Of a stretch of DNA of 64,000 nucleotides, positions 42,027 through 44,690 are shown one piece after another (position 1 is the first letter of the stretch; each line of letters starts with the position of its first letter). A program made the translations under genes and the position numbers. The notes beneath the pieces are model-generated. The model had not been told where the DNA came from and did no database searches. It worked only from the letters and a program-made list of their open reading frames with translations. This stretch comes from Alphaproteobacteria bacterium (GTDB lineage Bacteria; Pseudomonadota; Alphaproteobacteria; Sphingomonadales; JAKSBY01): positions 57,103 through 121,102 of the forward strand of contig JAJFIV010000012.1 of NCBI GenBank assembly GCA_021774625.1. The letters are read 5' to 3'.

Positions 42027-42060
42027 GAAAAAGACCGTTCATCCGGCCCCTGGATATCTT

Positions 42061-42795
42061 TCAGTCCTGGGCCCGCTTTAAAGCATTTTCGACCGCCCGG
42101 AGCTGGGCATCGACCGAAATGGTGATTTCCGAAGTGACTTCCAGCTTCCGGTCTTCGAAAATATCTTTTTCAGGATATTTTTTCCGCCATTGGCCGACCT
42201 TTTTATCACGCGCCCGGATCAGCTCCGCCATTTGCGGTTTGAACAGGCGGAACATGGCCGTCAGCCAGCGGTTGACCGCCCAGGACGGATGGGTGTGATC
42301 AATCTCGTAACGGTCCAGCATCGGAATCAGTTCGTCCGCGCCATACCAGGTTTCATCGGTCACCCAGCGGTTGACGGTGAACATCTTGATGGGAAAACCC
42401 TTTTTATCCATTGAAATGGATATCAGGTGGGTCCCGATACGGTCGTCATTCTCTTTTTGAGGATGCGCAAGCGCATAGGGCTCCGCCCCGTCGGGAATGC
42501 CGTCATAACGCATGAAGGTATGAAAATGGCCATGCTCACCGGGCCGGTCGCTTTTGGGATGGGCATGATAGTAATATTGACCGTGGGTTTCCCAGTCTAC
42601 CGCATCGCCCGGCGGATAATGATCCCATTCATAAAAGGTGTCGTGAAAACGGATAATTTCCCGGACAAGATTGCTTTTGGCCTTTTTCAGAACCCGGTAA
42701 CAGCCCCGAATTTCCTGCCCGGCGGCAGCCATGTGCTCTAAATCTGCGCTGGGCAGCGCGGCAAGCCCGGTATTTGCTTTTTTCCCGTCACTCAT
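42061..42795 (-). CDS. DUF6969-like His-rich protein
   Basis: 244 aa; HGQYYYHAHPKSDRPGEHGHFHTFMRYDGIP...DHTHPSWAVNRWL; family assignment from memory. Confidence 0.7.
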   Translation of the reverse strand: MSDGKKANTGLAALPSADLEHMAAAGQEIRGCYRVLKKAKSNLVREIIRFHDTFYEWDHYPPGDAVDWETHGQYYYHAHPKSDRPGEHGHFHTFMRYDGIPDGAEPYALAHPQKENDDRIGTHLISISMDKKGFPIKMFTVNRWVTDETWYGADELIPMLDRYEIDHTHPSWAVNRWLTAMFRLFKPQMAELIRARDKKVGQWRKKYPEKDIFEDRKLEVTSEITISVDAQLRAVENALKRAQD

Positions 42796-42807: not shown

Positions 42808-43659
42808 TCATTCGGAAGCGCTGCGGACAAGACGAAATCCGACCAGAATATGTTTGATGTCATCAGGACGGCTGTGACGCGCGGCCGGCCGGCAGACGCC
42901 GCAGCCGCTGTCATCCCATGAGCCGCCTTTGACAATATGCCGGCCGGCGGGTCCCTCTGTGGATGTCCATTCAAACACCTGTCCGGCGGCATCAAGCATG
43001 CCATATGGACTGGCGCCTTCAGGGAAGGAATTGACCGGCATTGTATCGAAGGGCCCGTTATCATGGCTGTTGAGGCGGGCGGCATCAAACATGTCGCTCC
43101 AGGGAAAAGCCCGGCCGTCCGCGCCCCGTGCAGCCTTTTCCCATTCCTGCTCCGTCGCCAGCCGCCAATCTTCACCGGTTTCCACTGAAAGCCAGGCGGC
43201 ATAGGCTTGCGCATCGTGATAGGAGACCATAACAACGGGATGGTCTTCCCGCCCTTCAGGCGCTTTGCCGCCGGTCCAGGCGAAACGGCGGGTGCTTTCA
43301 TAAGGATGAATCAGGCCATAACCATCCCAGGTTTCCCTCTCGACATCCGGTGCGGGATAACCGGTCGCGTTGATAAAGACGGCATAGTCCCGGCTTGTGA
43401 CCAGACTTTTCATGATATGGAAGGCAGGCAGAGCGACGTCCTGCCGGGCCGGTTCATTTTCGTACCATTCCTGATTGCGGGTCGCGGAATGGCCGTAGGC
43501 GGACTCGTCAAGGCGGTAGGCCATTTCCCGCTCCGCCCGGTCAGAGCCTGTTATAAAAGAGCCTTCCGGGACGGTTACTGTTTGCGGACCTGACGAGGCC
43601 GCGTCACAGGCGCTTAAAAAGACAAAAAACAACAGCGCCAAACCATGCAGGGCGCGCAT
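42808..43659 (-). CDS. SUMF1/formylglycine-generating-enzyme-fold lipoprotein
   Basis: Lipobox FLSAC; VPEGSFITGSD, VVMVSYHDAQAYAAWLS, WRLATEQEWEKAARG, IVKGGSWDDSGCGVCRPAARHSRP, VGFRLVR. Confidence 0.9.
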   Translation of the reverse strand: MRALHGLALLFFVFLSACDAASSGPQTVTVPEGSFITGSDRAEREMAYRLDESAYGHSATRNQEWYENEPARQDVALPAFHIMKSLVTSRDYAVFINATGYPAPDVERETWDGYGLIHPYESTRRFAWTGGKAPEGREDHPVVMVSYHDAQAYAAWLSVETGEDWRLATEQEWEKAARGADGRAFPWSDMFDAARLNSHDNGPFDTMPVNSFPEGASPYGMLDAAGQVFEWTSTEGPAGRHIVKGGSWDDSGCGVCRPAARHSRPDDIKHILVGFRLVRSASE

Positions 43660-43715
43660 CCGGATATTGAACCAGAGCGCGCCCCGACATGGCATGTTCT
43701 TTCTTGTCCGGCTTA

Positions 43716-44690
43716 TCAGTTCCCTTTCCTGTATTCTTCAGGCATGAAGAATAAATGGTCCTGATCCGCCATGACGGCGTGGCAGTCGATGCAGAATTGC
43801 ATCCCGCCGGAATTCTTGCCGTTGGTCACACCGAAAGTCGAACCATCCGGCATCAGCATGGTATATTTCCAGTTGCCGCTTTCAGCGTTAAAGCCACCGG
43901 TCATCTTCTCCATCAAAAAGAGCGGTCCGACCTGTACTTCGCCATTATGTGCGACTGTTATACTGTCTTTTGCCAGCACCGAACCAACCGGCAATGTGCC
44001 GGCCTCTTCAAACCGGCCATAGTTAGAGGCTTTGGCGTTGGCGTAATTGTTAACGTAACGGCCGCCATGCGTGCCGGAAACATACGGGACAGTGTTATAA
44101 CTTTGCCAGTCTGTGAAGCCGCCTGCGTTAGCCGCGCCCGCGCCATCAGCAAAAGTCGCTTTAATCTTACCCTTGATGCAGTCATAGGCCGATGCCGCCT
44201 CGGCATCTGTCAGTTCCACACCACCGCCGCCTGCGCAGGGATTGCACGGATTGCAGGGGTTACACGGATTGCAGGCAGCAGCGCAGGGATTGCAAGGATT
44301 GCATCCGCCGGCCTTCATGGCGGCGCAGGGATTGCAGGGGTTGCAGCCACCGCATTTCATGGCGGCGCAGGGATTGCAGGGGTTGCAGCCACCGCATTTC
44401 ATGGCGGCGCAGGGATTGCACGGGTTGCATCCGCCGCATTTCATGGCGGCGCAGGGATTGCATTTATAGGCTGCGGCCACCCTCGGAACGACACAGGTTC
44501 CAGCTGCAGCGCAAGGGTTGGCGCTTTGTGCCGATGCCGCGCTTTCCGTTGATGCTGTATTGCGGCTTGCCGCGTCAGGGTTTTCACCGCCTTCGCTGCA
44601 GGCGGCAACCACAAGACTTGCCGATAGCCCGAACACGCCAACGATGAATGGCATGCCGGTTGTTGATTTTAGTCTGGTCCTGATTGTCAT
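43716..44690 (-). CDS. Lipoprotein with cysteine-rich CNPC repeat domain fused to a cytochrome P460-like domain
   Basis: Lipobox VVAAC; tandem [14 protein letters not shown] units; C-terminal [16 protein letters not shown]...[24 protein letters not shown] (CxxCH haem site). Confidence 0.88.
44224..44469 (-). repeat. 42-bp in-frame tandem repeats encoding [14 protein letters not shown] units
   Basis: ggcggcgcagggattgcaggggttgcagccaccgcatttcat-type unit, about four copies plus shorter CNP units. Confidence 0.93.

Follow-up and report, generated by a model that had tools for sequence, protein, structure and literature searches.

What does a dense run of cysteines do in front of a haem domain, and which of the neighbouring genes serves it? 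The window, i.e. the whole 64,000-nucleotide stretch of DNA analysed here, raises this question through a gene that joins tandem CNP units to a cytochrome P460 domain (Table 1). The gene can start at ATG 44690, which has an AG-rich stretch upstream and gives 324 residues, or at GTG 44735, which gives 339; residue numbers of this CNP-P460 protein follow the 339-residue (GTG) form. From the N- to the C-terminus, the protein consists of a signal peptide with lipobox, a short linker with CVVPR, the Cys block and the P460 domain, and it contains 28 cysteines. A 10-residue stretch of its leader is similar to the [KR]xLLSSTxxP leader that recurs in relatives, and as judged from its sequence the protein is probably exported and lipid-anchored. 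A sequence-only reading of this DNA had pointed to a repeat at 44224-44469. The repeat is real, but that span takes in just a portion of the 324-residue protein, and the reading had overlooked the haem domain as well as the export signal and the operon. Export of the protein, which the reading had presumed, is borne out by the signal peptide with its lipobox.

Table 1. Features of the CNP-P460 locus, in positions of the window.
Feature	Position	Strand	Evidence
CNP-repeat/cytochrome P460 gene	43716..44690	minus	ORF and translation; matched by 11 further genomes of the order
Signal peptide, lipobox VAAC (Cys46)	44598..44690	minus	Sequence inspection and leader comparison
Single CVVPR motif	44481..44495	minus	FGE consensus CxPxR plus one residue in the first gap
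Cys-repeat block, 4 x CNPCAAMK[C/A]GGCNP, then a 20-residue run of CNP units	44235..44462	minus	TRF, translation, composition
Cytochrome P460 domain, PF16694	43719..44219	minus	E=9e-8, above curated cut-off; profile comparison
Lys256 (LAKDS)	43968..43970	minus	On haem-crosslinking Lys78 of M. capsulatus P460 in two alignments
Haem c motif CIDCH	43779..43793	minus	Translation and alignment of relatives
Exported FGE-sulfatase-domain protein, PF03781, lipobox LSAC	42808..43695	minus	Pfam, E=6.7e-43
CGVC (GGSWDDxGCGxC) at the place of the FGE copper site	42892..42903	minus	Invariant Cys columns in 17-sequence alignment
DUF6969 protein (candidate maturation enzyme), PF22308, lacking a signal peptide	42061..42795	minus	Pfam, E=3.3e-83
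Terminator-like hairpin with T tail just past DUF6969	42030..42051	minus	Position only; 1 found, shuffles average 4.1

TRF detected a 42-bp unit in 4.3 copies at 44281-44462 (92% matches, score 294), which together with the translation confirms the near-identical in-frame repeat followed by CNP units that the earlier reading had described. The block spans residues 92-167, with 22 cysteines in 76 residues; adding the two cysteines just upstream gives 24 in ~95 residues, where about two dozen in about 105 had been estimated. The triplet NPC occurs 14 times in the protein. This is not explicable by composition, since the maximum over 5000 residue shuffles was only 3. Two of the unit copies are identical in DNA, and in the fourth unit Ala replaces one Cys. 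On average, the four units share 37.8 of their 42 bases. Simulations based on the unit amino acids and local codon usage gave 33.9 (sd 0.84), and only 3 of 20000 reached the observed value. Likeness above the synonymous expectation supports a recent duplication or homogenisation of the units, as had been proposed. The genome is a draft of 35 contigs, and its assembly may have collapsed identical copies. A role of the cysteines in metal binding or disulfide formation, also put forward in the earlier reading, is plausible. Two plus-strand ORFs run antisense over the repeat (43755-44552 and 44192-44647); we rejected them, as they merely reflect the minus-strand repeat read from the other strand.

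A search of 100 relatives matched the protein in 11 other genomes. Ten of these matches have a P460 domain, and nearly all ten carry an NPC-rich region of differing unit and length; one is a contig fragment without this region. The eleventh (G074) is weak and has no Cys repeat. The relatives retain cysteines and NPC triplets but differ in how many there are and how they are spaced. Conservation of the cysteines among homologues, which the sequence-only reading had raised, is what we found, and the copy number, which it had expected to vary between strains, varies between relatives, the repeat unit and its length differing across genera. Some NPC proteins are small, exported and stand alone, with 70-110 residues (74 in L069), and the leader motifs [KR]xLLSSTxxP or KKTxxxLSVAALA recur in both the P460 and the stand-alone forms. 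Three loci from a phylum-wide genome draw (L150 432-1169, L153 2223-3068 and L155 2235-3053) encode, beside DUF6969, proteins with NPC blocks on both sides or in front of a SoxA/TsdA-type cytochrome c domain. Because the SoxA/TsdA-type domain replaces P460 in these DUF6969-linked NPC proteins, it is the repeat that stays constant and the haem domain that can be exchanged. By sequence comparison, the Cys module is a unit of its own, joined to two or more haem c domains that are unrelated to each other.

Some variants deserve mention. Two relatives (L083 215-1162 and L098 769-1812) have, besides their N-terminal block, an extra NPC block within the P460 domain just after KDSF. At L027 7003-8615 and L036 1505-4971, a sulphur-transport (PF04143-like) gene lies near the CNP gene, and at L027 a DsbD-like gene is nearby as well.

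The P460 assignment of the haem domain rests on a PF16694 match of 33 bits (cut-off 27) and on a profile of 18 relatives, which hhalign matched to solved P460/c'-beta chains with a probability of 97.6. According to a 2025 review, the haem crosslink of M. capsulatus P460 is Lys78, where solved c'-beta proteins have Phe or Met (PMC11928373). Lys256 falls on this crosslinking position, which argues for a P460-type haem in the CNP-P460 protein. Glu276 falls on Asp102, the distal carboxylate, in one alignment and elsewhere in the other, and some relatives have Lys or Arg at this residue. A structure model of the domain with one relative was too poor for use (pLDDT 35). The same genome has two further P460 genes. 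In other genomes, P460-like proteins without CxxCH adjoin haem-bearing P460 paralogues (L083 4592-5728 and L075 4763-5884) and are apparently haem-less.

In the explanation that ranks second among the rivals, the haem domain might oxidise a small compound of nitrogen or sulfur, with the CNP cysteines either taking up the product (as S-nitroso or persulfide) or relaying electrons to a linked cytochrome c. SoxA and TsdA proteins act on sulfur compounds, and two unrelated haem c domains (P460 and SoxA/TsdA-like) share the module. Class I cytochrome c genes often adjoin DUF6969, the crosslink Lys position is present, and two genomes have a sulphur-transport gene, one of them also a DsbD-like gene, close to a CNP gene, all of which would be consistent with such chemistry. 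However, the distal carboxylate for hydroxylamine oxidation aligned inconsistently, and a haem domain is missing altogether from many CNP proteins. We consider this explanation improbable.

The genes next to CNP-P460 offer another approach to its function. On the minus strand, CNP-P460, the exported FGE-sulfatase-domain protein and DUF6969 form a tight three-gene operon with gaps of ~20 and ~12 bp, whose end is possibly marked by the hairpin. DUF6969 has no signal peptide and is therefore probably cytoplasmic. Invariant over 43 sequences are H59, H77, H79, H88, H90, H92, H123, D64, D67, E87 and E219, a His/Asp/Glu pattern that would be expected of a metal enzyme. Its enzyme activity is a guess, because searches of the PDB found no solved relative (only chance matches to heat shock proteins) and no known relative or structure was found; a single-sequence structure model was too poor for use (pLDDT 49). 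A defence role gained no support, as PADLOC gave no match, and the viral contigs searched contained no DUF6969 relative. One genome has a tandem pair of DUF6969 genes (G015:C74:54466-55823). In a literature that leaves out most subscription papers, we found no paper naming DUF6969, none containing CNPCNPC, and none bringing together cytochrome P460, cysteine-rich and repeat; nor did a term search of the 2025 review (PMC11928373) reveal any mention of a Cys-repeat extension of P460.

How closely DUF6969 and the repeats travel together can be seen across 387 genomes of the class, in which CNP-type repeats were scored by the DNA pattern CNPC(x0-10)NPC. This pattern was present in 50 genomes and DUF6969 in 92. 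Of the pattern-positive genomes, 44 also had DUF6969 (Fisher 1e-25), and with at least three pattern matches the fraction was 39 of 40; these Fisher values are descriptive, since the genomes are related and their independence is overstated. The sole exception at three or more matches (G394) is a 91%-complete genome, and the other sampled members of its genus have DUF6969. As a control, MNIO enzymes occurred in 150 of the same 387 genomes and showed no association with CNP (p=0.53 and 0.73).

This linkage extends to Cys repeats of other sequence. A Cys-repeat ORF lies within the ~1.5 kb flank at 11 of the 30 best DUF6969 loci, and under a strict filter 6 of 20 DUF6969 loci from genomes without the CNP pattern had Cys-repeat ORFs within 4 kb. 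In such genomes, the adjoining exported Cys repeats are CCAAEG, GCSPCG, AKCGAAKCSPCG and GDCGGSACGG; for instance, in G012 (same order) DUF6969 is adjoined by a CCAAEG lipoprotein. The genome studied here encodes a second DUF6969 (G000:C1:6181-6774; L074 6112-6894), directly downstream of an exported KCGAK-repeat protein of 91 residues (L074 6933-7205). DUF6969 is therefore linked to, and co-occurs with, Cys repeats of several unrelated sequences. That unrelated Cys repeats fill the same place beside DUF6969 is the best evidence that it acts on or for cysteines. The CNP pattern is absent from about half of the genomes with DUF6969, several of whose loci have no nearby Cys repeat, and the same holds for many DUF6969 loci overall. 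Conversely, some NPC proteins can evidently do without DUF6969, as three genomes of one genus (L013, L014 and L015, from G063, G057 and G099) have P460 proteins and no DUF6969. Of these P460 proteins, the two that are complete carry NPC repeats; the genes adjoin a mechanosensitive-channel gene.

These data bear on whether the repeat has any specific chemistry. Disulfide-bonded Cys repeats might simply form a stalk, flexible or rigid, that keeps the haem domain off the membrane, with DUF6969 serving the assembly of the haem protein. The low-complexity composition of the repeat and its freedom to vary in length among relatives would suit a stalk. Yet, haem-less stand-alone repeats are linked to DUF6969 too, and cysteine is the element conserved among the unrelated sequences that fill the same place. 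A passive spacer is therefore unlikely, and we regard it as very improbable.

A more serious alternative, and our main rival explanation, is that the module is an unmodified, metallothionein-like binder of Cu(I)/Zn(II), with DUF6969 as a metal-loading or thiol-protecting chaperone. The same linkage and co-occurrence would be expected in that case, the Cys density is very high with CxxC spacing, and the His/Asp/Glu cluster of DUF6969 could merely hold metal. Invariance over 23 columns, however, appears catalytic. Moreover, plain metallothioneins seldom have a dedicated linked protein. On balance, an unmodified binder seems somewhat unlikely.

The middle gene of the operon needs separate discussion, because the sequence-only reading had tied the CNP units to the CxPxR consensus of FGE. 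This tie gained no support: the CNP-P460 protein contains no CxPxR, only CVVPR, and the neighbour has no C-x4-C pair. In FGE, the copper Cys pair is Cys336/341 in human and Cys272/277 in S. coelicolor (PMC4505483). The neighbour shares the FGE/SUMF1 fold, with PF03781 and matches to the structures of FGE, EgtB, OvsA and PvdO, but differs in having GCGxC for C-x4-C and a linked CNP-P460 protein that offers no CxPxR substrate. Its scores against NCBIfam EgtB, SenA, PvdO and OvoA were far under the cut-offs. At 16 of 16 checked loci, a close relative (51-62% identity) immediately precedes DUF6969 in the same orientation. By sequence the protein belongs to a tight subfamily, which is no FGE by the copper-site feature, since GGSWDDxGCGxC stands where FGE has C-x4-C.

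The reading nevertheless came near something real, namely an FGE-domain gene in the operon, which recurs beside DUF6969 in other genomes, and a C-x-x-P-R motif in the P460-type proteins. In the form C-x-x-[PA]-R-[LVI], a single copy of this motif (CVVPR or CFVPR) is present in 16 of 25 P460-type relatives and in 1 among other proteins, placed either ahead of the repeat, following the signal peptide, or between two repeat blocks. Every P460-type protein with an intact N-terminal part and a DUF6969 or FGE-like gene within 2.5 kb has the motif, except L148, whereas stand-alone CNP proteins lack it, bar one cut by a contig end. The motif may be a recognition or processing site. The conserved operon partner and CVVPR could also be taken to mean that the FGE-like neighbour turns repeat cysteines into formylglycine. 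Against this stand the lack of CxPxR in the CNP-P460 protein, the departure of the neighbour from the Cys pair spacing of FGE (PMC4505483), and the many CNP genes that have no adjoining FGE-like gene. Nothing supports a direct action of FGE on the CNP units, and we consider formylglycine formation extremely unlikely.

The explanation that we prefer, with a confidence somewhat short of even, is that DUF6969 matures the exported Cys-repeat module, which then binds a soft metal beside a redox haem, like a bufferin or metallothionein and with the FGE-like protein assisting. The repeat would provide an array of thiols at the N-terminus of a haem c protein that is exported and probably held by a lipid anchor. 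DUF6969 would be a cytoplasmic, metal-dependent enzyme, likely using iron, that modifies the repeat cysteines or the backbone prior to Sec export, and the exported FGE-like protein would help outside the membrane. The mature module might hold a soft metal, Cu(I) being the likeliest, next to the redox-active haem; alternatively, its end function could be thiol redox beside the haem. The whole would then resemble a cytochrome with a bufferin or metallothionein attached. The layout of the protein, its haem domain, the operon and the linkage and co-occurrence of DUF6969 with Cys repeats are observed; we infer that DUF6969 is an enzyme, that it works on the repeat, which metal is bound and how the FGE-like protein takes part. 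We saw no conserved copper gene in the neighbourhoods examined, which speaks against this explanation.

More tentatively still, DUF6969 could represent a new metal-dependent, peptide-modifying family that acts on the cysteines of exported Cys-repeat proteins (NPC, KCG, CCAAEG and others), and its products a new, MNIO-independent class of haem-coupled, modified metal-binding proteins. DUF6969, a domain of unknown function present in about a quarter of the sampled genomes of the class, gains a testable candidate substrate in the exported Cys-repeat proteins, and the small stand-alone partners (70-110 residues) make such a test simple. The co-travel of repeat and DUF6969 suggests an undescribed way to make metal-binding or redox-active proteins.

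With the P460/c'-beta superfamily, the CNP-P460 protein shares a PF16694 match above cut-off, a C-terminal CxxCH and the crosslink Lys position, but it differs in the Cys repeat before the domain, which in L083 and L098 also occurs inside it. With metallothioneins, the module shares high Cys density and CxxC spacing; in contrast to them, it is exported, built of tandem CNP units, fused to a haem domain and linked to a DUF6969 gene. Pfam metallothionein families gave no match to the CNP-P460 protein or the small CNP proteins tested.

The precursors of bufferins and oxazolins are Cys proteins exported through Sec; before export, a cytoplasmic iron enzyme (MNIO) modifies them, and the products bind copper (PMC12452194). 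Some bufferins are fused to PF03781, the precursors may exceed the typical RiPP size, and according to preliminary results of the same authors enzyme recognition seems to involve the signal peptide (PMC12452194). Likewise, the CNP system has a Sec-exported Cys-repeat partner, a linked cytoplasmic candidate enzyme, recurrent leaders and an FGE-domain protein. However, its repeat is NPC rather than EGKCG or Buf1/Buf2, its linked protein is DUF6969, and it includes haem c fusions. The genome has 0 matches to the MNIO enzyme (PF05114), so that we rejected an MNIO partner elsewhere in it, and 0 to the DUF2063 partner (PF09836); hence, the CNP system is not a member of the bufferin class. If DUF6969 modifies its partners, bufferin-like products would be reached by a second, independent route, in this case in fusion with haem c domains, with consequences for periplasmic metal and redox chemistry. 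Should the inference hold, the CNP system works like the bufferins, without the bufferin enzymes.
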